NCBI GenBank assembly: GCA_902797985.1
Contig: CADBUZ010000002.1
Span: 23,164 to 87,163, forward strand
Origin: an uncultured bacterium
GTDB lineage: Bacteria; Cyanobacteriota; Vampirovibrionia; Gastranaerophilales; Gastranaerophilaceae
Direction of reading: 5' to 3'
DNA length: 64,000 bases
Below the pieces are notes generated by a model that was not told the DNA's origin, did not search any database, and saw only the letters and a list, made by a program, of their open reading frames with translations. Both the position numbers and the translations under genes were made by a program. Of this stretch, positions 17,606-61,967 are shown one piece after another (the first letter of the stretch is position 1; every line of letters starts with the position of its first letter).

Positions 17606-17617
17606 ATCATGATTTTA
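17606..17617 (-). promoter_or_regulatory. dnaA: dnaA -10 element, leaderless arrangement
   Basis: Minus strand TAAAAT (17612-17617), then CATGAT, then ATG. No Shine-Dalgarno sequence fits in 6 bases. A hairpin TCATG/CATGA (about 17633-17650) lies just upstream. Confidence 0.6.
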
Positions 17618-17780
17618 ATATAAGCATGATGTGTCATGGGTTTTGGCATGACAAAAATAAAATATTTTTTTACATTATAAAATATTAAGAATTGTAAATC
17701 ATGTATTTATAAAAAGGCAAATTTTTTTATACCAAATACTTTATAAAAGTATAAAGCTCTCTCTTCTTATTTAAACGGAC

Positions 17781-17807
17781 AGACCTTGATAACAAGGTCT
17801 TTTTTTT
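17781..17807 (+). terminator. Orphan intrinsic terminator in the dnaA-dnaN gap
   Basis: AGACCTTG (17781-17788), loop ATAA, CAAGGTCT (17793-17800), then seven or more T. No coding gene ends before it on the plus strand. It could close a short non-coding transcript started near 17640-17740, where a small TACTTT/AAAGTA stem also occurs, or insulate the origin. Confidence 0.7.
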
Positions 17808-17873
17808 ATTAATATAAATTATATAAATTAATTTATTTATATTAATCATCATTAGTAATAAGCTTTTATTATT

Positions 17874-18026
17874 TGTAGAAAACTCTTTGTAAGTTAGTTA
17901 TATAAAAGTTTTTAGATTGTTTAAAATAATGTAGAAAATAAACAAAATAATGTTATAAAATTGTAGAAAAATTTAAATATTTAAAAATATAAAATAAAAT
18001 ATGTAGAAAATAAAAAGTTTTCTACA
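17874..18026. other. oriC: Probable chromosomal origin (oriC) with five DnaA-box-like repeats
   Basis: The 9-mer TGTAGAAAA occurs at 17874-17882, 17930-17938, 17962-17970 and 18002-18010, and as its reverse complement TTTTCTACA at 18018-18026; the last two copies form an inverted pair 7 bases apart. TTTTCTACA differs by one base from the general box TTWTNCACA and from TTTTCCACA, used in cyanobacteria. The whole 548-base gap between dnaA and dnaN is extremely AT-rich (for example the run 17801-17860), as expected for a duplex-unwinding region. Location, repeats and the changed DnaA recognition helix agree. GC-skew over the full chromosome would settle it. Confidence 0.8.
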
Positions 18027-18153
18027 GGTTTTATACAAACAAATATTATAAATAAAAATTGTATCAATTTGTGTACATAAAAAGCCATAAAACTTTTAAT
18101 TACAGTAAATTTAAGATAAAATATTGTCATAATAAAAATCATTAGGAGGTTTT

Positions 18154-19326
18154 ATGGAATCAGGGGTTATGGAATTAGAAAATAATAGTGTTAATAATTC
18201 ATCAACAGGTGATTTATCATTTCAAGTAGAAAAAGAAATATTATTAAATGGTCTAAAAATAGTAGAAAGAGCAACTGCGCAAAAAGGTTTACAACCTGTT
18301 TTAGCAAATATATTAATTGATGCAGTTGATAAAAATAAATTAAATTTATATGCTACAGATTTTGATTTATCAATAATAACATCAATAGAAGCACAAGTTA
18401 GTAATATAGGTAAAATAACATTACCTGCTAAAAAATTACTCGATATAGTTTCAAGATTGAATGATGGTATTATTAGTTTTGAATTAAATTCAAATATAAT
18501 GACAATAAAAAGCGGAAAATCAAAGTTTGATATTATTGGTATTTCAGCAATGGAATTTCCAAAAATAGATTTATTATCAGAAGAAGATAATGAAGTAGAA
18601 ATTGATTTAAAACCATTAATAATTGGCATAAAAGAAGCAGGATTTGCTGCAGCTTCTTATGAATCAAATAATAATCTATTATCAGGTGTTGTTTGCGATA
18701 TAAATAAAAATGTTTTAGAAATTGCATCAACAGATGGAAACAGATTATCAAGAGCAAGAAAAATTATTACTAATAAAGACGATAAATCTATAAAGCTTAT
18801 TGTTCCTGCAAAAGTTTTACAAGAATTTTTAAAGATAAGTTATTTTATTGATGAAGATACTGTTAAACTTTATACAAAAAATAATAAAATAATGATTAAA
18901 TCTGAAAATGTAATAATGATTTCAAATATAATGAACGGACAATATCCGCAATATAATCAATTGATACCTCAAACTTTTCCAAAAGAAGCAAAAGTTAATG
19001 TATCAAAAATAATTTCAGCATTAGAAAGAGTTTCTACTATGGTTAATGAAAAAACAAGCATAGTAAAATTCAATTTTGTGGATAACAGATTATATTTAAT
19101 GGCAGATACTCCGGAATCAGGAAATTCACAAGATGAAATAGATATTTCATATTCAGGTGAAGAAATTCTTATTGCGTTCAATTATAGATATTTATTAGAA
19201 TGTTTTAAAAATATTGATGCAGAAGATATGATTATATGTATGAATACAAATCTTTCTGCAACAGTAATTAAACCTGATAATGACGAAGATTTTATTTATC
19301 TTGTAATGCCTGTTCAAATAAGATAG
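18154..19326 (+). CDS. dnaN: DNA polymerase III beta subunit (sliding clamp)
   Basis: 390 residues, ring-shaped processivity clamp loaded onto DNA next to the origin. Three repeated clamp domains are visible: QVEKEILLNGLKIVERAT begins domain 1 after a short polar N-terminal extension of about 20 residues, domain 2 from about 150 (LKPLIIGIKEAGFAAASYES), domain 3 from about 275. The C-terminus ends with the conserved YLVMPVQIR segment that lines the partner-binding pocket. The ATG has a TTAGGAGG site. The extension before domain 1 (ELENNSVNNSSTGD) is slightly unusual; the Met at residue 6 is an alternative start. Confidence 0.96.
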   Translation: MESGVMELENNSVNNSSTGDLSFQVEKEILLNGLKIVERATAQKGLQPVLANILIDAVDKNKLNLYATDFDLSIITSIEAQVSNIGKITLPAKKLLDIVSRLNDGIISFELNSNIMTIKSGKSKFDIIGISAMEFPKIDLLSEEDNEVEIDLKPLIIGIKEAGFAAASYESNNNLLSGVVCDINKNVLEIASTDGNRLSRARKIITNKDDKSIKLIVPAKVLQEFLKISYFIDEDTVKLYTKNNKIMIKSENVIMISNIMNGQYPQYNQLIPQTFPKEAKVNVSKIISALERVSTMVNEKTSIVKFNFVDNRLYLMADTPESGNSQDEIDISYSGEEILIAFNYRYLLECFKNIDAEDMIICMNTNLSATVIKPDNDEDFIYLVMPVQIR

Positions 19327-19348
19327 TTTAAATTAAAAAATAAATAAA

Positions 19349-19380
19349 AAAAAAGAATGACAATTTTGTCATTCTTTTTT
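19349..19380. terminator. Bidirectional terminator between dnaN and the deaminase gene
   Basis: AAAAAAGAATGACA, loop ATTT, TGTCATTCTTTTTT: T-rich on both strands, serving both convergent genes. Confidence 0.9.
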
Positions 19381-19392
19381 AAATAAAATTTT

Positions 19393-19923
19393 TTATAAAG
19401 AAGGTTTATAAACTTCTTTTCCGGATTTAACGTATTGTTTAAGAACTTTTTCACCTTCTTCTTGAGCAATATTACCGTAAACAGTAATACCACGTTTTTT
19501 AAATTCTTCTAACCAGTTAGGTTTAAATCCTTCATCAAAACCTGTTATTTCTTCAACACGTTTAGATGGGACACTATAATAAACATTTTTAATACCTGAC
19601 CACATAATTCCGCCAAGACACATTATACAAGGTTCTGATGTTACGTATAAACTTAAATTATAAGGTGCTAAATCATACGTATCATAATATAATTCTGCTT
19701 CTTTTATTGTATTCATTTCTGCGTGTCTGTTACTGCATTTGTCTTTAACAACAGAATTACTTGCCTTAGCTATTAAATTATCATCTTCATCATATATAGC
19801 AGCTAAAAAAGGACCTGCACCTGTTTCAATAACAGATTTTAATTCTTTTTGTAAATCTAATATAATATTAGTTGCTTTTTCAACTTTTAAATTATTTATT
19901 TCTTCGTTTGAAATAATATCCAT
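19393..19923 (-). CDS. Zinc-dependent nucleobase deaminase (guanine deaminase-like)
   Basis: 176 residues of the cytidine-deaminase-like fold. Zinc and catalytic residues are present: NRHAEMNT (His ligand and catalytic Glu) and SEPCIMCLGG (two Cys ligands). The downstream segment YSVPSKRVEEITGFDEGF resembles bacterial guanine deaminase GuaD more than tRNA adenosine deaminase TadA, and the protein is longer than TadA. The probable reaction is guanine to xanthine. The -10 (TAAAAT with an upstream TATGT) ends 6 bases before the ATG, so a leaderless mRNA is predicted. A nucleoside transporter lies next downstream on the same strand, separated by 220 bases. Confidence 0.8.
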   Translation of the reverse strand: MDIISNEEINNLKVEKATNIILDLQKELKSVIETGAGPFLAAIYDEDDNLIAKASNSVVKDKCSNRHAEMNTIKEAELYYDTYDLAPYNLSLYVTSEPCIMCLGGIMWSGIKNVYYSVPSKRVEEITGFDEGFKPNWLEEFKKRGITVYGNIAQEEGEKVLKQYVKSGKEVYKPSL

Positions 19924-19940
19924 ATTATGATTTTAACATA
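19924..19940 (-). promoter_or_regulatory. Extended -10 of the deaminase gene, leaderless arrangement
   Basis: Minus strand TATGTTAAAAT then CATAAT then ATG. Shares the TTTATGTTAAAAT string with promoters at 27953, 32384 and 38349. Confidence 0.65.
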
Positions 19941-20150
19941 AATAATAAAGGAGGTAAATTTATTTAAAAAATCAGATGTTTGGAGATTATTAACTTTTTA
20001 TAAACCAATAGCAGTTGCCCAAAGATAACTTTTAAACTATTTATCGGGTTCAGTTTCTTTTATATATTCTTCATAAAAATTTTGACTCAAAATTTTTTCC
20101 GTAATATTTTTTGTTGGGTTTAATATATTAAACTTTTTTCTATTTATTTA

Positions 20151-20175
20151 TCCCTTTACCCCTTTACCCCTAGAA
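20151..20175. repeat. Short GGGGTAAA tandem repeat at the transporter stop codon
   Basis: On the minus strand the nucleoside-transporter stop TAG opens the series GGGGTAAA, GGGGTAAA, GGGATAAA. It lies in the non-coding gap 19924-20169, in which nothing else was recognised. Confidence 0.5.
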
Positions 20176-21429
20176 TAAGATACCAACAATTGTAGCGGAC
20201 ATAAAGCAAGTGAGAGTACCTGCAATAAGTGCTTTAAAACCTAGTTGAGCAAGGTTATTTCTTTGTTCCGGTGCGAGTTCTCCTATTCCTCCGATTTGGA
20301 TTGCAATAGAGCCTATATTACCAAAACTACAAAGAGCAAAACTGGAGATTAAGAATGCTTTGTCTGTTATAACATTTTTAATTGATGTTAAATCCAAATA
20401 AGCAACAACTTCATTAAGTACAATTTTTTCTCCTATAAGTCCGCCAACATTAGTAATATCTTGAAGAGGTACCCCCATAACAAGTGCAAATATTGCAAAT
20501 ATTTTACCTAAAATAAATTTTAAAGAAAGATTAGGTAACCAACTCCAAGTGAGGTGTAATTTATAAAATAAAAATGAACCAAATCCGCCTAAAAACCAAT
20601 CAATCATTGCCACTAAAGCAACTAAAGCAATAATCATTGCAGTAATACTAATAGCAACTTTCATTCCGTCACCTGCTCCCGCAGCAATAGAATCGATTAA
20701 ATTAACGTGAGTTTTTTCAACAACAACTTCTATATTTTCACTTGTTTTAGGCTTACTATCTTCAGGATACATCAACTTTGCTATAGCTATTGCACCAGGG
20801 GCTGCCATAACTGATGATGCCAAAATATAAACAGCAGGGATTCCCATTTTTATATATACAGGCATCATTGCTCCTGATACACATGCTAAACTTCCTGCCA
20901 TTGATGTTAATAATTCAGAGCGTGTAAGTTCTTTTAAGTATGGTTTAATCATTATTTGTGCTGTTACATTACCTACAAATGAGTTTGCGACTGCACAGAG
21001 TGATTCTGCTCCTGATACCTTCATCACTTTATTCATCAATTTACCTAATAATGCAACAACTCTTTGCATTATTCCGTAATAATATAAAATATTTACTAAA
21101 ACTATCATAAGTATCATTGAACAGATAAGTTGAATTGCAAAAATTCTTGTTCCATTACAAAAGTCTATGGTAAATTTGTCACCTAATAATCCGCCAAATA
21201 CAACATTTCCGCCTTGTACGGCAAAATCCATAAGTTTTTCAATAAATGCACCAATTTTTAAGAATATAAATTGTCCTAAGGGTACTTTAAAAATAAATAA
21301 GGCAAATAATACTTGTAGTAATAATGCCATACCAATTGTTTTATAGTTTATTTTTTTCTTATTATTTGATAGAGCATAAGCAATTAATAAAATAACTGCA
21401 ATACCAATAAGACCAATAAATCTTTGCAT
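20170..21429 (-). CDS. Concentrative nucleoside transporter (CNT/NupC family)
   Basis: 419 residues, nearly all hydrophobic. Family landmarks: the N-terminal helices and FGGLLGDK re-entrant loop (about 77-84); the PYLKELTRSELLTSMAGSLACVSG core; the second half with GGLIGEKIVLNEVVAYLDL; and SFALCSFGNIGSIAIQIGGIG, the site that binds nucleoside and cation. It imports nucleosides across the inner membrane driven by H+ or Na+. It carries its own GGGAG ribosome site and lies downstream of rimO with a promoter-like TATAAT in the gap. Salvage enzymes in the window (deaminase, surE, purA) fit this role. Confidence 0.92.
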   Translation of the reverse strand: MQRFIGLIGIAVILLIAYALSNNKKKINYKTIGMALLLQVLFALFIFKVPLGQFIFLKIGAFIEKLMDFAVQGGNVVFGGLLGDKFTIDFCNGTRIFAIQLICSMILMIVLVNILYYYGIMQRVVALLGKLMNKVMKVSGAESLCAVANSFVGNVTAQIMIKPYLKELTRSELLTSMAGSLACVSGAMMPVYIKMGIPAVYILASSVMAAPGAIAIAKLMYPEDSKPKTSENIEVVVEKTHVNLIDSIAAGAGDGMKVAISITAMIIALVALVAMIDWFLGGFGSFLFYKLHLTWSWLPNLSLKFILGKIFAIFALVMGVPLQDITNVGGLIGEKIVLNEVVAYLDLTSIKNVITDKAFLISSFALCSFGNIGSIAIQIGGIGELAPEQRNNLAQLGFKALIAGTLTCFMSATIVGILF

Positions 21430-21464
21430 TTTGAACTCCCTTTTAAACTTATTCTTTTATATTA

Positions 21465-21490
21465 TAAATGGAAAATAGAAAATTTAAAAG
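21465..21490. repeat. Degenerate copy of the ATGGAAAAT repeat upstream of the transporter
   Basis: TAAATGGAAAATAGAAAAT at 21466-21484 differs by one base from the arm seen at 11950-11971 (read on the other strand), then diverges. It is flanked by a longer inverted repeat CCCTTTTAAA (about 21438-21447) and TTTAAAAGGG (about 21482-21491). A TATAAT for the transporter lies at its edge on the minus strand. Confidence 0.5.
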
Positions 21491-21524
21491 GGATATAAAT
21501 AATTAGGTTTTCTATCTAAAGAGA

Positions 21525-24552: not shown

Positions 24553-24642
24553 AATCTTACTCCTTTTTTATATTGTTCTCATGTATATTAGCATAAAGAT
24601 AAATTATTTAGTAACAATCTAAAATCAATACTAAAAAAGATA

Positions 24643-24671
24643 TTGTATTGAATAAAAAATAATATTATTAT
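24643..24671 (+). promoter_or_regulatory. surE promoter
   Basis: TTGTAT (24643-24648), 17-base spacer, TATTAT (24666-24671); ATG 32 bases further on. Confidence 0.5.
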
Positions 24672-24703
24672 ATACTGATACTGCACTAGATGGAAAGATA
24701 AAA

Positions 24704-25492: not shown

Positions 25493-25497
25493 AAATA

Positions 25498-26733: not shown

Positions 26734-26762
26734 TATAATTTTTCCTTTATCAAAAACTAAAA

Positions 26763-31449: not shown

Positions 31450-31887
31450 TTACATTTCAACCATAAACGTAACAGGGCCGTCATTGATAAGTTCAACATC
31501 CATCATTGCGCCAAAAACTCCTGTTTTTGTCGGTATATTTTTATGTCTGATTTGTTCAGTGAAGTATTCGTACAGTTCATTAGCTTTTTGAGGTAATTCA
31601 GCTTTGTCAAAACTTGGGCGTGTTCCTTTTTTGCAGTCCCCTGCAAGAGTAAATTGAGATACAACAAGAATTTCTCCTTCGACATCAATTATCGATTTAT
31701 TCATTTTTCCTTGTTCATCTTCAAAAATTCTTAATTTGCAGATTTTTTCGGCTAATTTTTCTGCATTTTCTTTTTCGTCACCTTTTTCAACCCCTAGTAA
31801 AATAAGTAATCCATGGTCAATTTGAGAGAATAATTTTCCCTCAATTGTAACAGATGATTTTTTTACTCTTTGGATTAAGCCCTTCAT
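31450..31887 (-). CDS. dtd: D-aminoacyl-tRNA deacylase
   Basis: 145 residues, normal. Hydrolyses D-amino acids wrongly attached to tRNA. Signature residues: SQFTLAGDCKKGTRPSF (active-site Ser-Gln and Thr) and the C-terminal NDGPVTFMVE, the cross-subunit Gly-cisPro motif. Usually found beside relA/spoT, not here. The -10 TATAAT ends 6 bases before the ATG (TACAGT between), which predicts leaderless translation. Convergent with purA. Confidence 0.95.
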   Translation of the reverse strand: MKGLIQRVKKSSVTIEGKLFSQIDHGLLILLGVEKGDEKENAEKLAEKICKLRIFEDEQGKMNKSIIDVEGEILVVSQFTLAGDCKKGTRPSFDKAELPQKANELYEYFTEQIRHKNIPTKTGVFGAMMDVELINDGPVTFMVEM

Positions 31888-31899
31888 ACTGTAATTATA
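31888..31899 (-). promoter_or_regulatory. dtd -10 element, leaderless arrangement
   Basis: Minus strand TATAAT (31894-31899), then TACAGT, then ATG; no ribosome-binding sequence possible. Confidence 0.6.
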
Positions 31900-32832: not shown

Positions 32833-32867
32833 TTGAATTTTTTAGCGCAAATGGATATAATTTGAGT
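32833..32867 (+). promoter_or_regulatory. Promoter with leaderless arrangement for the double-GNAT gene
   Basis: TTGAAT (32833-32838), 17-base spacer, TATAAT (32856-32861), then TTGAGT and ATG at 32868. The longer reading starting at 32820 would begin inside the upstream terminator's T tract. Confidence 0.75.
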
Positions 32868-33857
32868 ATGGCTGTTATTAAAAAGTTGAATTATTTTGAT
32901 AAACCAAAACTAAAAGAATTAAGTCCGTTTCTAAATTATGAAGATGAAAACTTATTTATCGATATTATTACGAACGGACTTCCGGGACATTTACATTATT
33001 ATTTGCCTTTAAAATACAAATGTCTTAATGAATCATATCTTTTAGAGGATAATCAAAAAATACTCGGTCTTATTACTGTTAATACATTTAGCGGTAATCC
33101 TTATAAAATAAATATTTCTCAGTTATTTTTTATAGAAAATGCTTATGAAGTAGCTCAACAGCTGATAGAGTTTGTAATTTCGCAATATGGTGCTATGGGT
33201 GCGCACACTTTTTATATTTTAGTTGATGACAAGTATACGGAATTATCTCAATTATTTATGAACAGCTGCGGATTTAGACAATGTTCTTATGAACAAATTT
33301 GGGAATCACCCAAAACATCTTTAAAAAAATGTAAAAATATTACATATAGAAGATTTAAAAAATCGGATATTCACGAAGTTGCTGACATATATAATGATTC
33401 TGTTTTAACACATTTCAAACCAACTTTACTAAGAGAAGAAGCGGAATTTAAAGAACCGATATTTTCAGGATTGAAATATGCAAATGAATACAGATATGTA
33501 ATTGAAGAGCCCGGAACATCAAGAATTATCGCATATTTTAAAATCTCTACAGCAGACAATACAAATTACACTGTTGATTTTAACTACTCTGATGGTTATG
33601 AAATAGATTTTAATTCAATATTATATTTTGCTAAAAGAGAAATTTTAAAGCGGACAAGGAAATTTAAATTATTTATAAAAACAAAAAATTACATAAATAC
33701 AAATAAAGCGCAAAAAGAATTTTTGCAAGAAGCAGGTTTTAAGTGCATTAGTACAAAAAATCTTTTTATAAAAGATTTCTTTAAAATTGCAAAAGAATAT
33801 TCCCAAGAGGAAAGATACGCTGTAATGGGCGGATTACACAATAGTCCTTCTTTTTAA
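32868..33857 (+). CDS. Tandem GNAT-type acetyltransferase-like protein
   Basis: 329 residues from the leaderless start at 32868. Two copies of a GNAT-like alpha/beta fold can be traced: residues about 1-150 (ending FMNSCGFRQCSYEQIWE) and about 165-310 (beginning ITYRRFKKSDIHEVADIYND, ending FLQEAGFKCISTKNLFI). Each ends with the typical 'xxGFxxx' turn. The classic acetyl-CoA loop Q/RxxGxG/A is not clearly present in either copy, so at least one is probably inactive. A domain duplication is seen directly; enzymatic role is unproven. Single gene. Confidence 0.6.
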   Translation: MAVIKKLNYFDKPKLKELSPFLNYEDENLFIDIITNGLPGHLHYYLPLKYKCLNESYLLEDNQKILGLITVNTFSGNPYKINISQLFFIENAYEVAQQLIEFVISQYGAMGAHTFYILVDDKYTELSQLFMNSCGFRQCSYEQIWESPKTSLKKCKNITYRRFKKSDIHEVADIYNDSVLTHFKPTLLREEAEFKEPIFSGLKYANEYRYVIEEPGTSRIIAYFKISTADNTNYTVDFNYSDGYEIDFNSILYFAKREILKRTRKFKLFIKTKNYINTNKAQKEFLQEAGFKCISTKNLFIKDFFKIAKEYSQEERYAVMGGLHNSPSF

Positions 33858-47135: not shown

Positions 47136-48701
47136 TTATTTATTTATAATTATTTTTTTGTTGTTTTCATTTTTGACTATTACATCTGTTAAAAGAAAAG
47201 AAAATTCACTACCTTTATTTAATTTACTTTCAAGCCATATTTTACCATTATGAGCCTCAATAATTTGTCTTGAAAGATATAATCCCAAGCCTGTTCCCGT
47301 TGAACGTTTTTTACTTGTTCCTTGTGAAAAACGATTAAATAAATTAGGAATATCTTCTTGAGGAATGCCATTTCCGTTATCTTGAACCGTAAAAATTAAA
47401 TCCTTTGCTTGCGATTTAACTGTTACATTTATTTCACCATTATTATTTGTATAATTAATTGCATTTCCGCAAAGGTTACAAATTACGCGTCTGATTTCTG
47501 ATCTGTCAGCACATATTTTTGTATCGTCATCTATGTCATAATTAACTTTAAAATCAATATGTTTAGTATCAGCAAGCGGTTTTAATTCAGCATATGTTTG
47601 CTCAACTAAAGATTTAAAATTAAATTCGGTTTTGCATAAATTCAATTTTGACGCATCATATTTATAAATTTCTAACAATGCATTCACTAACCCCAATAAA
47701 TCTTCATTACTTTTTTTCATTGTAGATAAAAGTAATCTTTGTTTTTCTGTTATTTCACCTATTGAACCATCGAGGAAAAATTTAAGAGTTTGTATTGCTG
47801 CCAACAATGGTGTTCTTAAATCATGAGTTAAAGTCGCAATAAAATCATCTCTCAATTTATCTGCTTCTTTTTGTTCTGTTATATCATGAATGACACCAAC
47901 ATATTTTTTTATAACCGCATCTTCCGATATACAAGCAAAACTAATATCTATAGGAATTTCTTTTTCGCTTACTGTATTATAAATCTTACAATCTCTTACA
48001 AAGAAATCATTATCTTCGGTTTTAAAACTTTCTAAAATATTCTTTTTAGATAAAATTAATTTTGATAAATTATTGTTTTTTATATTATTTTCCGACAATC
48101 CAAAAAGATTTTCACAAGTTTGATTAACCTGTTCAATATTACCTTTTTCGTCTGTTAATATAATACCGTCTGCACAATTAGCAAAAATTCCTTGTAATTT
48201 TGCGTTCGATTCAGACAAATCAGCTGTTCTTTCAGCAACTATATTTTCCAAATTATGAGAATAATCTTCCAATTGTTTTTTTGCATCTTCCAATTCAACA
48301 ATTTTTTGTCTTAATTCAGAAAGAAGATAACTTCTCTCAATCCCATTTTTCACACTCAAAACTAAATCATCATTTTCCCATGGCTTAGTAATATACTTAT
48401 AAAGTCCTACTTCATTTATAGCTCTGATAGCATTTTCTTTATCCGCATAACCGGTTAATAAAATCTTACTGACTTCAGGATACAAATCGTTCGCCTTAGA
48501 CAAAAACTCAAGTCCGTTCATTTTTGGCATAACAAAATCAGACATTATTAAATCAGGCGGATTATCTTTTAAATACTCCAATGCAAGTTCAGGTTCGGTG
48601 AAAAACTCGGCATTAGTAAAATCTTCAAGATAAAATAACGTTTTTAATGTTGATATTAAAGTTTCATCATCATCGACGACAACAATATTCCCATTCTTCA
48701 T
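47136..48701 (-). CDS. Hybrid sensor histidine kinase (receiver-PAS-HisKA-HATPase)
   Basis: 521 residues, no membrane helix, so cytoplasmic. Order: receiver domain with Asp55 (IMSDFVMPKMNG); a coiled linker (about 115-165); a PAS domain (about 165-280) with the IHDITEQKEADKLRDDF tail; HisKA with His293 (LTHDLRTPLLAA); and HATPase_c with N-box VICNLCGNAINYT, DNGNGIP and GTGLGLYLSRQI. All catalytic motifs are intact. A receiver at the N-terminus is common in cyanobacterial and Myxococcus kinases that form phosphorelays. The -10 (TAGAAT) ends 6 bases before the ATG and a TTGTCT -35 is 17 bases further up: a predicted leaderless operon head. Confidence 0.93.
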   Translation of the reverse strand: MKNGNIVVVDDDETLISTLKTLFYLEDFTNAEFFTEPELALEYLKDNPPDLIMSDFVMPKMNGLEFLSKANDLYPEVSKILLTGYADKENAIRAINEVGLYKYITKPWENDDLVLSVKNGIERSYLLSELRQKIVELEDAKKQLEDYSHNLENIVAERTADLSESNAKLQGIFANCADGIILTDEKGNIEQVNQTCENLFGLSENNIKNNNLSKLILSKKNILESFKTEDNDFFVRDCKIYNTVSEKEIPIDISFACISEDAVIKKYVGVIHDITEQKEADKLRDDFIATLTHDLRTPLLAAIQTLKFFLDGSIGEITEKQRLLLSTMKKSNEDLLGLVNALLEIYKYDASKLNLCKTEFNFKSLVEQTYAELKPLADTKHIDFKVNYDIDDDTKICADRSEIRRVICNLCGNAINYTNNNGEINVTVKSQAKDLIFTVQDNGNGIPQEDIPNLFNRFSQGTSKKRSTGTGLGLYLSRQIIEAHNGKIWLESKLNKGSEFSFLLTDVIVKNENNKKIIINK

Positions 48702-48736
48702 AATATTATTCTATCTTAACGATATTTATTAGACAA
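48702..48736 (-). promoter_or_regulatory. Promoter of the two-component operon, leaderless arrangement
   Basis: Minus strand TTGTCT (48731-48736), 17-base spacer, TAGAAT (48708-48713), then AATATT and ATG. Confidence 0.7.
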
Positions 48737-50804: not shown

Positions 50805-50816
50805 TATAATCAAGAT
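50805..50816 (+). promoter_or_regulatory. mgtE -10 element, leaderless arrangement
   Basis: TATAAT (50805-50810), CAAGAT, then ATG at 50817. The -35 is weak. No known Mg2+ riboswitch fits, since there is no leader. Confidence 0.65.
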
Positions 50817-52187
50817 ATGATAAATGTTGAAAGTGCAGTAGAAAGAATACGAGAAATACTTGACGACGAGAACACAAAACAACTAAAAGAAGTTCTCGAC
50901 GGATATCATGCTGCGGATTTAGTAGATATATTTGAAGAGTTAAATGCGCACGAACGTTTATCATGTTTTAATCTTTTGAATGAAGAAAAGGCATCAGATT
51001 TATTAGAATACTTACCTGCCCAATTACAGGTAGAATTACTTAGTGTAATTGATCAAGAATTAGCATCAAAACTTATTGCACAAATGCCTCACGACGAAGT
51101 TGCAGACGTTTTAGGTGATATGGAAGAAGATGAATCTGAATCATATTTAGATAAACTTCCTCAAAAATTATCATCAGAAATTAGAGAATTGATGACATAC
51201 AATGAAGAATCAGCCGGTGGTATTATGAACCCTGTTGTTTTAACCGTAAATGCTGATTCCGATGTTAATGATGTTCTTGCAACCATAAGAAAAAAAGCTG
51301 AAAAAGATAATTTAGATTTATATTATGTTTATGTTGTAGATAAACAAAATCATTTGATGGGTGTTGCTTCTCTTAGAAAATTATTGACATCACCTATTAA
51401 AAGTAAAATAACTGATATTATGATTCGTGATTTAGTAAAATTACACGTTGATGACAGACAAGACTATATTGCAGATGAATTTATGAAATATCAATTTAAT
51501 GCGTTGCCTGTAGTAGATTTATATAACAGGTTAAAAGGTATAGTTACTTGGGATGACGTTCAAGATATTGTAGAAGAAGAAACAACAGAAGAAATCTATA
51601 CATCTTCAGGTATCGCAACCGAAATGGTTGAAGATGAAGATGATATTCTTTCCGGTAATTTATTACACGCAGTAAAAGCTCGTACACCTTGGTTATTTAT
51701 CACATTATTAGGTGAATTTATTGCTGTTAATGTTGCTAATCATTTCAATCATACTTTAGAAATATTACCAATAATAGCAATATTTATGCCATTACTTGCA
51801 GGATTAGGCGGAAATATTGGAACACAAAGTATTACATTAATTGTTCGTGGTCTTTCTACAGGACAAGTAACCTTAAAATCTGCTATGCATCATATTATTA
51901 GAGAATCCGCAATTGGTTTTCTTATAGGTTTATTTTTTGGTATATTGGTTACTTTAGTAACTTGTGGATGGCAACATCACGTTGGACTTGGAATTATTGT
52001 TGGTTTATCAATGATGATTAATATGACTTGCGCTACTTTGATTGGAACATTGACTCCATTTATTCTTAAAAAATTAAAAGTTGATCCTGCTATTGCCTCA
52101 GGACCTGTTATTGCAACCACAATTGATGTTGTTGGTTTATTTATTTACTTTTCATTTGCAACAGTTTATCTAATGCATATTAAATAA
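50817..52187 (+). CDS. mgtE: Magnesium transporter MgtE
   Basis: 456 residues from the ATG at 50817, preferred because a TATAAT ends 6 bases before it. An earlier ATG at 50772 lies upstream of this promoter. Cytoplasmic N domain (about 1-125), two CBS domains (about 130-255) with AGGIMNP and VDLYNRLKGIVTWDDVQ, then the plug helix and five membrane helices from about 290. The selectivity-filter region ALPVV... is replaced in the CBS part; the pore helix has the conserved PLLAGLGGNIGTQS. Mg2+ channel opened when internal Mg2+ falls. Single-gene unit. Confidence 0.94.
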   Translation: MINVESAVERIREILDDENTKQLKEVLDGYHAADLVDIFEELNAHERLSCFNLLNEEKASDLLEYLPAQLQVELLSVIDQELASKLIAQMPHDEVADVLGDMEEDESESYLDKLPQKLSSEIRELMTYNEESAGGIMNPVVLTVNADSDVNDVLATIRKKAEKDNLDLYYVYVVDKQNHLMGVASLRKLLTSPIKSKITDIMIRDLVKLHVDDRQDYIADEFMKYQFNALPVVDLYNRLKGIVTWDDVQDIVEEETTEEIYTSSGIATEMVEDEDDILSGNLLHAVKARTPWLFITLLGEFIAVNVANHFNHTLEILPIIAIFMPLLAGLGGNIGTQSITLIVRGLSTGQVTLKSAMHHIIRESAIGFLIGLFFGILVTLVTCGWQHHVGLGIIVGLSMMINMTCATLIGTLTPFILKKLKVDPAIASGPVIATTIDVVGLFIYFSFATVYLMHIK

Positions 52188-52228: not shown

Positions 52229-52257
52229 TGAAAAAATCTCTTAGTCACATTGAGATT
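52229..52257 (-). terminator. Terminator of the mur-ftsW operon
   Basis: Minus strand AATCTC, an 11-base loop, GAGATT, then TTTTC. The stem is only 6 bp, so strength is uncertain; it may serve mgtE from the other side. Confidence 0.5.
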
Positions 52258-52260
52258 TAA

Positions 52261-55898: not shown

Positions 55899-55904
55899 AT
55901 TTAT

Positions 55905-56873
55905 TTATCCTAAAAATTTAAATAATCCGACTGCGATAACTCCGCAGAGCATAGAGAATAATGCGAACCCTGTTACTATTTGTTTTTCGTTAAATCCGCA
56001 TAATTCAAAATGATGGTGAATAGGTGACATTTTGAAAATTCTTTTTCCTGTAGTTTTGAAACTTGCAACTTGAAGTATTACAGATAAGGTTTCTATGACA
56101 AATATACCTGCTAATATTATTAAATAAACTTCAAATTTTCCCATAACTGCAAGTACTCCAAGCAATCCGCCTATGGCAAGAGAGCCTGTATCTCCCATAA
56201 AAACTTGTGCTTTTGGTTTGTTATATCTTAAAAATCCGAGTAATGCGCCTGTTACGGCAGCAGAAATTATTGCAAGATATATGTCGCCTGAAAGATAAGA
56301 AATAATAGTGCAGGCTAAAAATGCAAACACACCTGTTGATGCCGCCAAACCGTCTAAACCGTCTGTTAAATTATATGCATTTGATGAACCTGTGATAGCA
56401 AAAATTGCAATGATAGGATATACCCACATAAAGTCTATTGAATATTTTCCAAAACTTAAATATGTGCCGTATTCATTTGTAACCATTACATACAAAACAG
56501 GTAATACCGCAATCAATACTTGTCTTAAAAATTTACCCCTTGCGCTTAAACCTTTGTTTTCATGACCTTTTATTTTTAGAAAATCATCTTGAAATCCTGC
56601 AAGTGCATAGAATAAAAATGTGATTAAAACTATCCAAGCATTGGTAGAAAATTCTTGTGCCATGCATAGTGCTATTACAGCACCAAAAAGGGCTGATATT
56701 ATTATAAATACTCCACCTGTTGTTGGAGTTCCTTCTTTTTGTTTATGATTTTCAGGTGCTAAATCTCTTATATATTGTCCAATTGTTTTCTTTTTTAAGA
56801 AATCAATATATGGAATTCCAAATAATAAACAAAGTATTAGCCCTAATAAAAAGGCTACGATTATCATTATCAT
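55905..56873 (-). CDS. mraY: Phospho-MurNAc-pentapeptide transferase MraY
   Basis: 322 residues, ten membrane helices. Transfers phospho-MurNAc-pentapeptide to undecaprenyl phosphate to form lipid I. Conserved blocks: HKQKEGTPTTGGVFII, the cytoplasmic loop FQDDFLKI with the Asp pair, NAYNLTDGLDGLAA (catalytic Asn/Asp) and SPIHHHFELCG near the C-terminus. Its start overlaps the murF stop by one base (TAATG), and it lies 6 bases before murD. Confidence 0.96.
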   Translation of the reverse strand: MIMIIVAFLLGLILCLLFGIPYIDFLKKKTIGQYIRDLAPENHKQKEGTPTTGGVFIIISALFGAVIALCMAQEFSTNAWIVLITFLFYALAGFQDDFLKIKGHENKGLSARGKFLRQVLIAVLPVLYVMVTNEYGTYLSFGKYSIDFMWVYPIIAIFAITGSSNAYNLTDGLDGLAASTGVFAFLACTIISYLSGDIYLAIISAAVTGALLGFLRYNKPKAQVFMGDTGSLAIGGLLGVLAVMGKFEVYLIILAGIFVIETLSVILQVASFKTTGKRIFKMSPIHHHFELCGFNEKQIVTGFALFSMLCGVIAVGLFKFLG

Positions 56874-58222
56874 TATTTATCTCCTTTTATAAAGGTTAGT
56901 ATCTCTTCAAACTTCATTGATCTTGAAGCCTTTAAAAATATTGTAGTACCAATTTTGACATTATCAAGAATGTAACGGGAAACGTTTTCATTTGTGTCAA
57001 AATTTTTGGTAAAACATACATTTACAACGTCAGAAATTTCTTTTGCTAAGTTTCCAACGGTGAGTATCTGTATGGCGCAATGTTTTGCGTCAAATTTTTT
57101 ATTAATAAATTCACCGACTTCTCTATGATATTGTTTCTCATTTTCACCTAATTCGCCCATGTTCCCTAATACAATAACAATTTCATCATATAATTCCATT
57201 ACTGTATTTAAGGTGGCTTTCATTGATTCAGGGTTTGCATTATAGCTGTCATTGATTACGTTATAGCCGCCAATTTTTTCTATTTCCCAACGTTTTTCTA
57301 TTGGTTTATATTCAAGCAATCCTTTTTTAATAAGTTCGTATTCTATTTCTAAATATTTTCCTACATTTATTGCAGATAAGGAATTTTCAATATTATAATC
57401 TCCCTCAATATTTAGTTCGTATGTTTCGTTGTTGTATTTGAACTTGGAAAACCCGATTTTTTTATCAATTATTTCAACATCATCAATAGAATAAAATAAT
57501 TTTTCCCCTTTAAAATTAACTGTTTGTTTAATTAGTTCATTATTATGTGCAATTAAAATACCGTTTGGATTTTGATAAGAGGTTATTTCACATTTAGCTT
57601 TTGCGATATTTTCTCTTGAACCTAATCTTCCTATATGTGCTGTGCCGACATTAGATATGATTGAAATATCAGGTTGAGCATATTTAGAAATCAGTTCTAT
57701 TTCACCCGGTCCTCTCATACCTGCCTCTATAATAAGCACTTCTGTTGAGTTATCTATAGAAAATATTGTTTGACAAAGTCCAATTTCATTATTATGGTTA
57801 AGAGGGGTTTTTACAGTATTGTATTTCTGTGAAACGACTGAATATACAAGTTCTTTTGTTGTGGTTTTTCCGGAGCTTCCTGTTATCATGATAACTTTTG
57901 GATTTATTTTATTTCTGTAACAGTTTGCCAGTTTTAGGTATGCTTCTTTTGTATCATTAACGCATAAGATGTTAACATTTTTTAAATCAGAGGCATTATT
58001 TTTATTTGTACAAAAACATCCTGCAGCTCCATTTTCTACTGCTTTGTTTAAGAATTTTTCTCCGTCAAAAGTTTCACCTTTTAACGGAATATAAAAATCA
58101 CCTGTTTTAATAGTTCTTGTATCGGTTGAAAAAGTATTAATTTTTTGATTATTGTCAGATTTGGAAATTATTTCCGCACCTGTAATGTTAGCAATCTCTT
58201 CAATAGTCAATTCTATACTCAT
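56873..58222 (-). CDS. murF: UDP-MurNAc-tripeptide:D-Ala-D-Ala ligase MurF
   Basis: 449 residues. Adds D-Ala-D-Ala to the UDP-MurNAc tripeptide. N-terminal substrate domain (1-105: DTRTIKTGDFYIPLKG), ATP site MITGSSGKTTTKEL, IEAGMRGPGEI, NVGTAHIGRLGS, and the C-domain NDSYNANPESM with the family Asn and Asp. First gene of the five-gene wall operon; a TTTACT-17-TATAAT promoter ends 6 bases before the ATG, so the operon is predicted to start with a leaderless cistron. murC, murB, ftsI and ftsZ are not present beside it. Confidence 0.95.
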   Translation of the reverse strand: MSIELTIEEIANITGAEIISKSDNNQKINTFSTDTRTIKTGDFYIPLKGETFDGEKFLNKAVENGAAGCFCTNKNNASDLKNVNILCVNDTKEAYLKLANCYRNKINPKVIMITGSSGKTTTKELVYSVVSQKYNTVKTPLNHNNEIGLCQTIFSIDNSTEVLIIEAGMRGPGEIELISKYAQPDISIISNVGTAHIGRLGSRENIAKAKCEITSYQNPNGILIAHNNELIKQTVNFKGEKLFYSIDDVEIIDKKIGFSKFKYNNETYELNIEGDYNIENSLSAINVGKYLEIEYELIKKGLLEYKPIEKRWEIEKIGGYNVINDSYNANPESMKATLNTVMELYDEIVIVLGNMGELGENEKQYHREVGEFINKKFDAKHCAIQILTVGNLAKEISDVVNVCFTKNFDTNENVSRYILDNVKIGTTIFLKASRSMKFEEILTFIKGDK

Positions 58223-58257
58223 AAGATTATTATAATTTGAATAAATATAAAAGTAAA
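58223..58257 (-). promoter_or_regulatory. murF operon promoter, leaderless arrangement
   Basis: Minus strand TTTACT (58252-58257), 17-base spacer, TATAAT (58229-58234), then AATCTT and ATG. Confidence 0.75.
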
Positions 58258-58344
58258 TTATTATTTAAGGTTAAAAATACAAATAAATTTTTGTAAAAAA
58301 AAGTAATATTAGCCAAAAATCTGTTTTCAAAATTTATAAAATAA

Positions 58345-58359
58345 TGTTATTATAGAATT
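58345..58359 (+). promoter_or_regulatory. Extended -10 of the acyltransferase gene, leaderless arrangement
   Basis: TGTTATTAT (TATTAT at 58348-58353) followed by AGAATT and ATG at 58360. Confidence 0.65.
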
Positions 58360-59178
58360 ATGTCAGATATGGAAGATTTATACAGTGAAGTACCTCCTAC
58401 AAAGTTGAGAGATGTGGAAGAACATTTCCGTCCGGCGAGAACATCAAAATTTTGGCTATGGGTAGCAGACAGATTTTTTTATGGTCTTATAGAAAAAAGA
58501 TTTTGTGCATTTAGATATAAAGGTTATGAGAACTTTTTAGAAAATCGTGATGCGAATTATCCTACAATATTTTTTGCACCACATTATAATTGGTGGGATG
58601 GAATTGTAGGTTATAATATTTGTAACAGACTATGCAAAAAAGAAATTCGTTTAATGATAGAGGAATTGAACAGATTTCCTATTCTTAGACGTGGCGGTGG
58701 TTTTAGTGTTAATAAAAAATCTGCTCAGACAGCTATGGAATCATTAAGATATTCTGTCAGAGTACTTAAAGATTTGAACACTATATTATACCTTTTCCCG
58801 CAGGGGATTATTAATCCTCCGGATCATAGACCTATAAAGTTTCAAACAGGTATTTCTTATATTGCTCAAAAAGCGGTTAAAGAGTATGGCAAGATTAATC
58901 TTGTTCCAATTGCTGTAAATTATTTCTTTTTAAGAGATAACAGACCTGAAGTTATGATTGAAATGGGCGATGTTATCCAATTAACTGATGACAAATTTGA
59001 TAGAAAAGAATATGCAGAATATTTGGCAAATACGTTAGAAAAACTTTGTGATAAGCAAATACAAGAAGTTTCTCAAGCACAATTCGAAGGTTATAAAACA
59101 TTGTTCAAACAAAAACTTGCGTGGTATAGAGAATTTGAACAGCATTTAAAAAGAATTAAAACAAAAAAACAAAAATAG
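58360..59178 (+). CDS. Lysophospholipid/1-acylglycerol-phosphate acyltransferase-like protein (PlsC family)
   Basis: 272 residues. HX4D acyltransferase motif HYNWWD (His75, Asp80) after the hydrophobic strand YPTIFFAP; block II with LRRGGGFSV; block III FPQGIINPP in place of the usual FPEGT(R); and a basic C-terminus (about 250-272). It acylates a lysophospholipid or a related lipid at the inner membrane. The FPQG variant leaves the substrate uncertain; glycerol-phosphate, sugar or lipid A acylation are options. Single gene, predicted leaderless. Its C-terminal Lys-rich tail may bind membrane. Confidence 0.8.
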   Translation: MSDMEDLYSEVPPTKLRDVEEHFRPARTSKFWLWVADRFFYGLIEKRFCAFRYKGYENFLENRDANYPTIFFAPHYNWWDGIVGYNICNRLCKKEIRLMIEELNRFPILRRGGGFSVNKKSAQTAMESLRYSVRVLKDLNTILYLFPQGIINPPDHRPIKFQTGISYIAQKAVKEYGKINLVPIAVNYFFLRDNRPEVMIEMGDVIQLTDDKFDRKEYAEYLANTLEKLCDKQIQEVSQAQFEGYKTLFKQKLAWYREFEQHLKRIKTKKQK

Positions 59179-59267
59179 TTTTTTGCATAATTTTATTTAA
59201 TTCCCCAAGTCGGTTATTTACTTTTGTATCGACATATTTTAACTTTCTAAAAAAGAAAGGAGAAAAT

Positions 59268-59477
59268 ATGAGAATTATTAAAATTATTGCATTTATTTTA
59301 ACTGTAATTGGTGCTATAAATTGGGGATTAGTCGGTCTTTTCAGATTTGATTTAGTTGCTTCCATTTTTGGTGAAATGAGCTATATTACGAGAATAGTTT
59401 ATGCTTTGGTAGGTTTCTCAGGCATATATTCATTGTTTACAATATACGGACATTTAATCGAAGATAACAATTACTAA
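59268..59477 (+). CDS. DUF378 family small membrane protein
   Basis: 69 residues, two membrane helices. The family signature is the stretch ALTVIGAINWGLVGLF-like sequence at about 9-27 (here ILTVIGAINWGLVGLFRFD) followed by SYITRIVYALVGFSGIYSL. Function unknown in all bacteria. Strong AAAGGAGA ribosome site; a terminator follows immediately after the stop, so it is transcribed alone or as the end of a unit. Confidence 0.88.
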   Translation: MRIIKIIAFILTVIGAINWGLVGLFRFDLVASIFGEMSYITRIVYALVGFSGIYSLFTIYGHLIEDNNY

Positions 59478-59510
59478 AAACGAAAGGGGCTTGTCGCCCC
59501 TTTTCGTTTA
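59477..59510. terminator. Terminator after the DUF378 gene; second copy of a repeated hairpin
   Basis: AAAACGAAAGGGGC, loop TTGTC, GCCCCTTTTCGTTT. The reverse complement of 59482-59503 matches 44941-44962 at 21 of 22 positions. Confidence 0.9.
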
Positions 59511-59633
59511 ATTTTCGAAACATTTCATCGGTATTTTTAACCGGTACTTATATAAACATTTTTTTAATGTTAGAATTTCAGAAATCAAAAAAACTGTTAC
59601 ATTAGTTCATGAAGTTTTGTAAATCGGTTACTA

Positions 59634-59648
59634 TGCTATAATAAGCAT
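59634..59648 (+). promoter_or_regulatory. Extended -10 of spmA, leaderless arrangement
   Basis: TGCTATAAT (TATAAT at 59637-59642), then AAGCAT, then ATG at 59649. Confidence 0.7.
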
Positions 59649-60269
59649 ATGAATTATATTTTTTATATTTTAATAGTTTTTTCAGTAATTTTTGGAGTTA
59701 TAAACGGTAAAACTCAAGAGGTAGTGAATGCAATATTGGACGGTGCTGATGTTTCTGTCAAGATAGCACTTTCTTTAATCGGAATAATGGCATTTTGGCT
59801 TGGGATAATGCGTATTGCCGAAAAAGCAGGACTTGTACAATGGTTAGCAAAACTGATAAAACCTGTTACAAAATGGATTTTTAATGATGTCCCGCCTGAA
59901 AATGAGGCTATTGGAAATGTTGCACTTAGTGTTTCCGCTAATGCGCTTGGATTAACAAATGCAGCTACCCCTATTGGGTTAAAGGTTATGAAGGAACTCC
60001 AAGAAATCAATAGTAACGATAAAGAAACTGCATCTGATGCTATGTGTATGTTTTTGGCTATGAATACAGCAGGGTTTCAAATTATTCCTGCAACTGTTAT
60101 TGCCGTACTCGTTGCTGTAGGTTCAAAAAATCCGACAGAAATAATCATGCCAACCTTGATTGTTACCTCAATAGCATTTGTATCGGCTATTATTATTGCA
60201 AAGATTTTTCAAAAATTTTGGAAAAATAAATTAATTTCCCCAAGTGAAAAGGGGGTAAACAATGATTAA
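59649..60269 (+). CDS. spmA: Spore maturation protein A-like (SpmA, nucleoside-recognition domain)
   Basis: 206 residues, five to six membrane helices. The family signature NEAIGNVALSVSANALGLTNAATPIGLKVMKELQ is recognisable (quoted in part: SANALGLTNAATPIG). In Bacillus SpmA and SpmB affect spore-core dehydration, but close homologues are common in non-sporulating Gram-negatives, where the function is unknown; they resemble nucleoside-transporter gate domains. The stop region overlaps the spmB start by 8 bases. Predicted leaderless mRNA. No sporulation genes are nearby. Confidence 0.9.
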   Translation: MNYIFYILIVFSVIFGVINGKTQEVVNAILDGADVSVKIALSLIGIMAFWLGIMRIAEKAGLVQWLAKLIKPVTKWIFNDVPPENEAIGNVALSVSANALGLTNAATPIGLKVMKELQEINSNDKETASDAMCMFLAMNTAGFQIIPATVIAVLVAVGSKNPTEIIMPTLIVTSIAFVSAIIIAKIFQKFWKNKLISPSEKGVNND

Positions 60270-60786
60270 TATTTTATCTCTGTATGCTTTACCTTTTATA
60301 ATTGTTTTAATTTTGACTATTGGAATAGTTAAAAAAGTGCCTATTTACGAAGAATTTACAGAAGGTGCAAAGGATGGATTTTCTGTTGCAATAAATATAA
60401 TTCCGTATCTTGTTGCAATAATAGTAGGAATATCAATGTTTAGAGCTTCAGGTGCTATGGATAGTATAGCAACATTTTTAACACCGTTATTAACTAAATT
60501 CACAATCCCTGTTGATTCAATTCCTATAATGATAACCCGCTCATTATCCGGTTCAGCGACACTGGGACTTTTTACGGAAATTGCCCATAAACTAGGTCCG
60601 GATGCTTATGCTACAAAACTTTGTGCAGTTATTGTCGGAAGTTCTGAAACGACATTTTACGTTTTATCTGTTTATTTTGGTTCAATTGGGATAAAGAAAT
60701 TCAGATATGCATTATTAGTCGGCTTGCTGGCTGACTTTATCGGAATAGTTGCTGCTGTTTTAGTTTGCTCGTGGATTTTCCTATAA
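60262..60786 (+). CDS. spmB: Spore maturation protein B-like (SpmB)
   Basis: 174 residues, membrane protein of the same fold as SpmA. Landmarks: VPIYEEFTEGAKDGFSVAI, the MFRASGAMD segment, PIMITRSLSGSATLG and GSSETTFYVLSVYFGSIG. It overlaps SpmA by 8 bases and the two probably form one complex. Convergent with the Kelch-type gene 2 bases downstream, with no terminator visible between them. Confidence 0.9.
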   Translation: MINILSLYALPFIIVLILTIGIVKKVPIYEEFTEGAKDGFSVAINIIPYLVAIIVGISMFRASGAMDSIATFLTPLLTKFTIPVDSIPIMITRSLSGSATLGLFTEIAHKLGPDAYATKLCAVIVGSSETTFYVLSVYFGSIGIKKFRYALLVGLLADFIGIVAAVLVCSWIFL

Positions 60787-60788
60787 AA

Positions 60789-61955
60789 TTATTTAGATGA
60801 GGTATATACGAATATTTCGGGTTTAAGGAATACAGAGTTGTCATTTATTCCTTCGTATATTAAATATTTGTTTTCGTTAATTTTTAAAATTTTATGTGTT
60901 TCTCTTGGAAAATTCATTTTAGAATCAACAGAAATCAATCTTTTTGTTTTTAAATCATATGTTTTTGCTGTATTTAGTGTTACTAATCCGTTTCTCACAG
61001 AACTATATGTTCCTCCTGCTATGAGAACTTTGTTATTAGGTAGTAATTCAATATCATATCCGCTAAGTTTAAATTTTTCGTCCGGAATTATTTCTTCGAT
61101 TGTTTTATTTTGCAAGTTCAAAATACCAATGTAATCTCTATAATAAAATTTTTCATAACCTGATTTTGGGTTTTCCGGATCAATAATTTGTGTAGCTTCT
61201 GTTAGGCTTCCATCTGTTTCATTAAAAACTCTTTTCGTGAAAAATAGATAATTATTGTTCCCTATAGAATATAATTTTGTATTTTTTCCCCAATTAACTG
61301 TTTTTAATCCTATATCAATTATTTCAGAAGTATTATTGTTTAAATCATAGATTTCTATGTTTTTCCCTTCGCCACCCAATAGCAAAATTTTATTCGGCTC
61401 AATTTCTATGGATTTATGACCAAATCTTTTTTCTTTTAAATCAGGGTGTTGGATGAAAGTATTTGTTTTTATATCATATTCTAAAACTTTATCATGTTTG
61501 TAATTTGCACCTGTGACTAATATGTTACCGTTATTTAGTTCTAATAAGGATGTGCCAAAAGTTGGGTAAGGTATTTTTGCTGTTTTTGAATAGGTGTTGT
61601 CGTTAGGGTTGAAAATACAAACGTACGCATCTGCAGGCATGTCGTTTGCAGGATTATTTTTCCCGAAAATGAATATTTTTCCATTTTTTAACGGTAAAAT
61701 ATCTGCTTCAGAATATCCGTTTATTTTCCCTTGTGCAGAATATTTGTTAGTATCAATATTTAAAATCGAATATATGATATTATTGACTTTTGTGTCAATA
61801 GATATGAACGAATTATTGTTAATTCTATAGCAATGACAATTTTTAAACGTTGAGTTGTCAGGGGTTAGCAAGATGTTGAATTTCCCAACATTCGCACAAT
61901 TCGCTGGGATTGATATTCCAAATATTAAACATAATATTAATAAAAATTTTTTCAT
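60789..61955 (-). CDS. Secreted Kelch/beta-propeller protein
   Basis: 388 residues. Signal peptide about 1-20 (KKFLLILCLIFGISIPANC; the Cys at its end could be a lipoprotein site but lacks a clear lipobox). The mature part has at least five repeats of the Kelch type, each with a 'xNxKxxIxGG' strand: NGKIFIFGKNN, NGNILVTGANY, PNKILLLGGEG, NNKVLIAGGTY. Such propellers bind carbohydrates or proteins on the cell surface. A TATAAT ends 6 bases before the ATG, again predicting leaderless translation. Confidence 0.75.
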   Translation of the reverse strand: MKKFLLILCLIFGISIPANCANVGKFNILLTPDNSTFKNCHCYRINNNSFISIDTKVNNIIYSILNIDTNKYSAQGKINGYSEADILPLKNGKIFIFGKNNPANDMPADAYVCIFNPNDNTYSKTAKIPYPTFGTSLLELNNGNILVTGANYKHDKVLEYDIKTNTFIQHPDLKEKRFGHKSIEIEPNKILLLGGEGKNIEIYDLNNNTSEIIDIGLKTVNWGKNTKLYSIGNNNYLFFTKRVFNETDGSLTEATQIIDPENPKSGYEKFYYRDYIGILNLQNKTIEEIIPDEKFKLSGYDIELLPNNKVLIAGGTYSSVRNGLVTLNTAKTYDLKTKRLISVDSKMNFPRETHKILKINENKYLIYEGINDNSVFLKPEIFVYTSSK

Positions 61956-61967
61956 AATCTAATTATA
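61956..61967 (-). promoter_or_regulatory. Kelch-gene -10 element, leaderless arrangement
   Basis: Minus strand TATAAT (61962-61967), TAGATT, ATG. Confidence 0.6.

Follow-up and report, generated by a model that had tools for sequence, protein, structure and literature searches.

Ten genes in a 64,000-nucleotide stretch of contig CADBUZ010000002.1 from an uncultured bacterium (the window, meaning the whole stretch of DNA that was analyzed) begin in the same way, with a TANNNT hexamer resembling the -10 element of sigma-70 promoters, exactly six bases, and ATG. The original prediction took these for leaderless genes, i.e. genes whose messages would begin at the start codon itself, and direct reading of the sequence agreed with its description at ten of ten starts. 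It also agreed for the three -35-like hexamers (TTGAAT, TTGTCT and TTTACT) placed 17 bases before their -10 and for the TGn extension attributed to some units, which is present at the deaminase, acyltransferase and spmA-like genes. The -10-like hexamer is TAAAAT at dnaA and the deaminase gene, TAGAAT at the kinase gene, TATTAT at the acyltransferase gene and TATAAT at the other six. The features are listed here by window position, each -10 or -10-like hexamer lying six bases from its ATG.

17612..17617, minus strand: -10-like TAAAAT of dnaA (gene 16211-17605; Pfam Bac_DnaA)
19930..19935, minus strand: -10-like TAAAAT with TGn, deaminase (gene 19393-19923; Pfam dCMP_cyt_deam_1)
31894..31899, minus strand: -10 TATAAT of dtd (gene 31450-31887; Pfam Tyr_Deacylase)
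32833..32838, plus strand: -35-like TTGAAT upstream of gene 32868-33857, 17-base spacer to the -10
32856..32861, plus strand: -10 TATAAT of gene 32868-33857 (labelled 'double-GNAT'), ATG at 32868
48708..48713, minus strand: -10-like TAGAAT of a response-regulator/PAS/histidine kinase gene (47136-48701; Pfam)
48731..48736, minus strand: -35-like TTGTCT of the histidine kinase gene, 17-base spacer to the -10
50805..50810, plus strand: -10 TATAAT of mgtE (gene 50817-52187; Pfam MgtE)
58229..58234, minus strand: -10 TATAAT of murF (gene 56873-58222), layout kept in family loci
58252..58257, minus strand: -35-like TTTACT of murF, 17-base spacer to the -10
58348..58353, plus strand: -10-like TATTAT with TGn, acyltransferase (gene 58360-59178; Pfam Acyltransferase), divergent from murF
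59637..59642, plus strand: -10 TATAAT with TGn, spmA-like gene (59649-60269; Pfam Gate)
61962..61967, minus strand: -10 TATAAT of a Kelch-repeat gene (60789-61955; Pfam Kelch_6)

Some of the names originally given to these genes are less well supported than claimed, no Pfam or NCBIfam model having matched gene 32868-33857 ('double-GNAT') at E 1e-3. This gene does have orthologues in relatives, and the layout was kept in two of the three orthologue pairs found. The deaminase matched the NCBIfam TadA model only below that model's cut-off.

The layout extends well beyond the window. The analysis covered about 0.77 Mb of the source genome (the genome of 1.86 Mb to which the window belongs), comprising the window and 702 kb in other stretches. 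Genes were called from a hexamer coding score and the longest consistent open reading frames (ORFs), with the first ATG of the ORF as start, blind to upstream motifs, and a gene was counted as first in its unit if its upstream neighbor was on the opposite strand or more than 60 bases off. Hexamers were accepted with T1, A2 and T6 fixed and at least five positions matching TATAAT; TGn, a -35 TTG, T at -1 and Shine-Dalgarno (SD) motifs played no part in selecting distance-6 genes. In the window the hexamer stood at distance 6 in 10 of 34 first-in-unit starts, where control distances averaged 0.85 and never exceeded 3 (Poisson p 3e-8), with none at distances 5 and 7. Held-out stretches of the source genome gave 40/386 (control mean 7.5, maximum 16; p 9e-17), with 5 at distance 5 and 10 at distance 7, the latter only slightly raised. 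The two sets together make up 50 distance-6 genes among 420 first-in-unit genes. Twelve stretches from 12 relatives in the same family had 20/129 where 2.4 were expected (p 1e-12), eight stretches of one further relative had 8/96 where 2.1 were expected (p 1e-3), and these 28 genes form the relatives' set. Pooled over source genome and relatives, the count was 78/645 against 12.8 expected (p 7e-35). The peak of TATAAT-like hexamers that the original prediction had set as its own genome-wide test was present, the excess over background amounting to about 10% of first-in-unit genes in source genome and relatives alike. Operon-internal starts showed the hexamer at this distance in only 1/155 cases in the source genome and 3/106 in relatives. 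Density was higher in the window than in the remaining stretches (10/34 vs 40/386, Fisher p 0.003), and this is probably why it was noticed in the first place, a selection effect. An upstream profile trained on the 40 non-window distance-6 genes and applied to unseen sequence with a threshold of 6 picked out 8/34 first genes in the window and 9/96 and 17/129 in relatives; intergenic ATGs reached the threshold in 0.4% of cases, sister families in 2/64, 2/39, 0/29 and 0/30, and a photosynthetic genome in 0/41.

Genes with the hexamer at distance 6 are almost devoid of ribosome-binding motifs. SD-like 4-mers preceded 1/50 of them in the source genome vs 190/370 other first genes (p 2e-13), and 0/28 vs 98/197 in relatives. 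The motif was also found before 78/155 operon-internal genes of the source genome and before 88/146 first genes in which the hexamer lay 16-34 bases from the ATG. The claim that two initiation modes coexist was sustained, under a single SD definition, by the contrast between 1/50 distance-6 genes on one side and 190/370 other first genes plus 78/155 operon-internal genes on the other. The 3′ end of 16S ribosomal RNA (rRNA) in a genome of the same order (G033) reads GGATCACCTCCTTTCT, with the anti-SD intact. Sequences for 16S rRNA were not found in assemblies G000, G013, G020, G014, G008, G012, G016 and G027 by a search that itself succeeded in only 9 of the 14 well-known genomes used as controls, and their absence from these assemblies is probably an assembly or search gap. 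The peak is also specific to the start codon. Among in-frame start candidates near the beginnings of ORFs, ATG occurred at distance 6 in 57 cases vs 12.1 expected, while GTG (2 vs 2.6) and TTG (7 vs 6.9) did not exceed expectation.

Other elements of a promoter accompany the hexamer. TGn, with TG at -15/-14, was present in 21/50 distance-6 genes of the source genome vs 18/360 other first genes (p 1e-11), and in 6/28 vs 7/192 in relatives (p 0.002). A TTG at exactly 17-base spacing preceded 9/50 distance-6 genes, with no other spacing between 12 and 23 exceeding two cases, and 6/28 in relatives. T at -1 occurred in 45/50 vs 178/360 in the source genome (p 1e-8) and in 26/28 vs 100/192 in relatives (p 1e-5). 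T followed by A is a usual context of a transcription start. If transcription starts at the A of ATG, the T at -1 lies outside the message, and translation could not account for it. Genes that lack SD motifs and have at distance 6 a weaker hexamer, matching no more than TANNNT, also show T at -1 in 16/19 cases, which probably makes the figure of about 10% of first-in-unit genes an underestimate. At one locus of the source genome (L005:4274-4319, contig C1), the starts of mnmG and of a divergent gene that matched nothing in Pfam lie only 44 bases apart; both have TATAAT exactly six bases before ATG, such that two predicted leaderless promoters overlap face to face.

Orthologues of dnaA, murF and mgtE were surveyed across 38 genomes, with at most 30 loci per gene. 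Further matches beyond these loci were in five genomes of the order for dnaA, and in seven of the order and one of the family for murF. Excluded were four weak or partial mgtE loci, loci with no nearby ATG (dnaA, one family and one order; murF, one order; mgtE, one family and five order), one order dnaA locus at a contig edge and two loci reading N throughout. Among family loci with a usable ATG, the source genome included, the layout was present at dnaA in 13/19 and at murF in 14/22 (both among the matches listed) and at mgtE in 12/16. Among the matches listed from sister families of the same order it was present in 1/8, 0/7 and 0/4, respectively, so that the three genes sum to 39/57 family loci vs 1/19 sister-family loci (pooled p 1e-6). 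The spacers are mostly distinct (11/13 dnaA, 13/14 murF, 12/12 mgtE) while the -10 box is retained, as is T at -1 in the layout-bearing loci (13/13, 13/14 and 11/12). At murF the start codon falls at alignment position 0, +2, +3 or +4 depending on the genome, and the box shifts along with it; most DnaA and MgtE proteins of the family can be aligned from their first residue at the distance-6 ATG. Orthologue pairs of the source genome's distance-6 genes kept the layout in 25/36 (dnaA 17/25, with some loci counted twice, and eight other genes 8/11), vs 0/51 for pairs of other first genes.

Several individual loci vary the pattern. At mgtE in G022, an ATG three codons upstream has a box at six bases. 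At the mgtE loci of G016 and G008 (L182, L179), a GTG occupies the distance-6 position in G016 and is immediately followed by an ATG, and in G008 that position holds GTT, with an ATG one codon later; the same transcription start place in G008 would leave a three-base leader. Three dnaA loci (L061, L062 and L066, from G016, G010 and G019) are without the layout, and in G019 AAGGA stands just upstream of the ATG, as if the gene had switched to SD initiation.

To gauge breadth, whole genomes were counted for TATAATN6ATG, or TATAATN5TATG where T at -1 was specified, against the backward pattern or an N9 spacing as control; rows of family f38 (50/194 genomes) lay outside this tally. In the family of the source genome, TATAATN6ATG exceeded the backward control in 62/62 genomes of the phylum sample (7449 vs 2482) and the N9 spacing in 23/23 genomes (2555 vs 1176), and TATAATN5TATG exceeded its backward control in 97/97 sampled genomes (7124 vs 1733, pooled 4.1x). 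Within the same order, N6/N9 ratios were 2.05 in f6, 1.73 in f7 and 1.37 in f3, and 1.02-1.08 in f2, f4 and f5; the ratio of f5 against the backward control was 2.54, so that only one of the two controls shows it raised. In stretches from five sister families, the distance-6 hexamer preceded 4/175 first starts. Elsewhere in the class, the pattern with T at -1 was raised 1.7 to 2.7 times, on small counts, in f8, f40, f39, f43 and f44, with 1.13 in f41 and 0.86 in f42, and stretches of f8 had the hexamer at distance 6 in 1/38 starts. Families outside the class that lack photosystem I were partly raised (f11 213 vs 55, f15 24 vs 2, f19 36 vs 1, f9 20 vs 3, f18 12 vs 0) and partly not (f22 251 vs 255, f25 0 vs 1); stretches of one f19 and one f11 genome had distance 6 in only 1/69 and 2/110 starts and did not bear out the whole-genome count. 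The 63 sampled genomes with PsaA/PsaB showed no pooled N6 excess (1840 vs 2832, ratio 0.65), and 13 of the 63 were above control. In one family the trait is strong and present in every genome sampled; sister families show a weaker signal or none. The source genome has no PsaA/PsaB and shares a phylum with genomes that have both, which fits the Gastranaerophilales-like placement originally given but falls short of proof. The nearest named relatives of its dnaA are labelled 'uncultured bacterium' (RUG770, RUG11253), one match at 46% bears the label 'uncultured cyanobacterium', and the labels of weaker matches are different.

We consider it very probable from these sequence patterns that sigma-70-type leaderless genes coexist with SD-led initiation in the source genome. 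All features by which the sigma-70 leaderless class (TA-like or -10-adjacent) can be recognized in sequence were found, namely the distance-6 peak, the first-in-unit location, the absence of SD motifs, the spacing of -35 and TGn, and the AUG start. The hexamer six bases before ATG would act as a working promoter. The usual start place at sigma-70 promoters is the seventh base after the -10 hexamer; RNA polymerase would most likely start the message there, at the A of ATG, and ribosomes are predicted to begin on the 5′-terminal AUG without an SD leader, as for leaderless messages elsewhere. The T at -1 before the A is no more than an indirect sign of such a 5′ end. Leaderless initiation (about 10% of first-in-unit genes) and SD-led initiation (about half of the others) would run side by side, a coexistence suggested by SD-like motifs in about half of other first genes and by the intact anti-SD in same-order 16S rRNA.

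Several observations weigh against this interpretation. The case for leaderless messages is built from sequence, and the anti-SD evidence is borrowed from G033, since 16S rRNA was not found in the assembly of the source genome. A recognizable -35 is seen in a minority of distance-6 genes only. T at -1 is common in other first genes too (49%, vs 39% in upstream background and 30% in operon-internal genes), and because these other genes also exceed background the signal is partly unspecific. Intergenic TATAAT-like hexamers without a following ATG show no clear initiator dinucleotide at the equivalent position; most of these are probably not promoters. Control-distance counts in the source genome climb to 16 at one distance, and 16 of its first-in-unit hexamers abut the ATG (distance 0), above most nearby distances, which initiation seven bases on leaves unexplained. 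Among the matches listed, family loci without the layout number 6/19 for dnaA, 8/22 for murF and 4/16 for mgtE, and since close relatives are among the orthologue loci, these numbers are not independent of each other. For the hexamers at distances 0 and 3, a miscalled start with the true ATG lying downstream was considered and rejected; an ATG stood at the shifted place in 0/16 and 0/7.

Other explanations of the hexamer can be set against the same data. Instead of being a promoter it could serve translation, as an AU-rich element within a longer leader (a site for ribosomal protein S1, for example), with transcription starting further upstream. Two earlier papers (PMC3160421, PMC5397173) describe AU-rich upstream signals other than SD in Bacteroidetes and numerous other groups, as well as AT-rich biases in Cyanobacteria, and the source genome is itself AT-rich, with about 30% GC. 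Such an element should serve internal genes too, however, where the hexamer is nearly absent (1/155), and it needs no single exact distance, no -35-like TTG at 17 bases, no TGn and no T at -1. On promoter anatomy, restriction to first-in-unit genes and T at -1 we rejected this explanation and regard it as improbable. Alternatively the distance-6 ATG may not be the real start, with transcription there and translation from a downstream ATG or another codon, such that these would be short-leader genes with misread starts. Start calling was mechanical and some choices of the first ATG are surely wrong, but miscalling would not favor one distance, and the peak is specific to ATG and missing for GTG and TTG. 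The alignment of most family DnaA and MgtE proteins from residue 1 and the way the murF box tracks its shifting start codon also speak against misreading, which was rejected on ATG specificity and orthologue alignment and is very unlikely.

A third possibility is a chance pattern that an attentive reader spotted in a genome with about 30% GC. In its favor, TATAAT-like hexamers are common (2203 lie wholly in intergenic sequence of the examined stretches) and the window is denser than other stretches. The identical single-distance peak in held-out stretches and in relatives of other genera (p 9e-17, 1e-12 and 1e-3), together with the whole-genome excess in 97/97 sampled family genomes, led us to reject it, and its probability is close to negligible.

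Leaderless expression as such is already known. Zheng et al. 2011 found leaderless genes with a TA-like (TANNNT) signal in 207/953 bacterial genomes, concentrated in Actinobacteria and Deinococcus-Thermus, and many Cyanobacteria using neither SD-led nor leaderless genes (PMC3160421). Their TA-like signal is like the one described here in placing the box about 12 bases upstream of the start from its first T (here 6 + 6) and in characterizing a minority of genes alongside SD-led ones; unlike the lineages they highlight, the present family lies within the cyanobacterial phylum and is without photosystem I (PMC3160421). In the '-10 region adjacent to ORF' mode of Deinococcus-Thermus, reported in 2025, leaderless messages are driven, as reporters showed, by a -10 located a few bases upstream of the ORF (PMC12340547). 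As here, the -10 is close to the ORF and genes led by a ribosome-binding site coexist, and a -35 there strengthens expression; that mode takes in about 30% of ORFs vs about 10% of first-in-unit genes here (PMC12340547). GeneMarkS-2, as told in the StartLink paper, predicts leaderless transcription in 21.6% of bacterial species; its leaderless class has the same predicted architecture as here, while the cyanobacterial pattern named there, unlike that of the present family, is not a leaderless one but a weak signal whose mechanism is unknown (PMC9581028). In the photosynthetic Synechococcus elongatus UTEX 2973, 19 gene start sites were considered leaderless, so that such messages exist there but sporadically (PMC6091082); the 63 sampled genomes with PsaA/PsaB gave no pooled N6 excess here. 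The newness of the mode in this lineage holds within the literature searched, in which no paper linked leaderless genes to Melainabacteria, Gastranaerophilales or Vampirovibri-; the search did not extend to supplementary figures, Fig. S7 of PMC12340547 among them. The Deinococcus-Thermus paper scanned the bacterial domain by phylum in that figure, and the cyanobacterial phylum may be covered there uncommented (PMC12340547). As far as searched, then, the mode is known and the lineage is new.

The genes predicted to be leaderless include a number that we take to be involved in genome maintenance and transfer RNA (tRNA) care. A Pfam scan covered 40 of the 50 distance-6 genes of the source genome, with gene names partly assigned from the Pfam labels. 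By these presumed identities the set includes DnaA, DnaG, polymerase III delta, RarA-like MgsA, RNase H, MnmG, MnmE, TsaD, Sua5/TsaC, Dtd and Pth, and further what are presumably LepA, RibD, an amino-acid kinase with PUA domain, LptC and LptF/G. Both partners of MnmE/MnmG and of TsaC/TsaD fall in the set. Replication or tRNA modification and quality control accounted for 11/40 of these genes vs 0/30 random other first genes (p 0.001, with categories chosen post hoc). Among 20 of 26 distance-6 genes scanned in relatives, one fell in those two categories, the six omitted including known dnaA and murF loci. The functional enrichment is a lead and not a result. One might go further and propose that in this family of the cyanobacterial phylum, which is without photosystem I, leaderless expression has become fixed as a mode specific to the clade, used by core genes of genome maintenance and tRNA modification (dnaA, dnaG, polymerase III delta, rarA, rnhA, MnmE/MnmG, TsaC/TsaD, dtd and pth), with box and start codon evolving and sliding as one joined element. 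Core proteins would then come from ribosomes independent of SD pairing, and be decoupled from SD-led genes under stress. This extension is speculative, and we think it unlikely.

If the leaderless interpretation is true, systematic leaderless expression would reach a lineage beside the photosynthetic cyanobacteria, where published surveys disagree, and a single family would stand out as having the mode at its strongest and in universal use. Start codons in this group may be miscalled by gene finders built around SD motifs. The joint movement of -10 box and start codon would provide a natural experiment on the origin and upkeep of leaderless genes.

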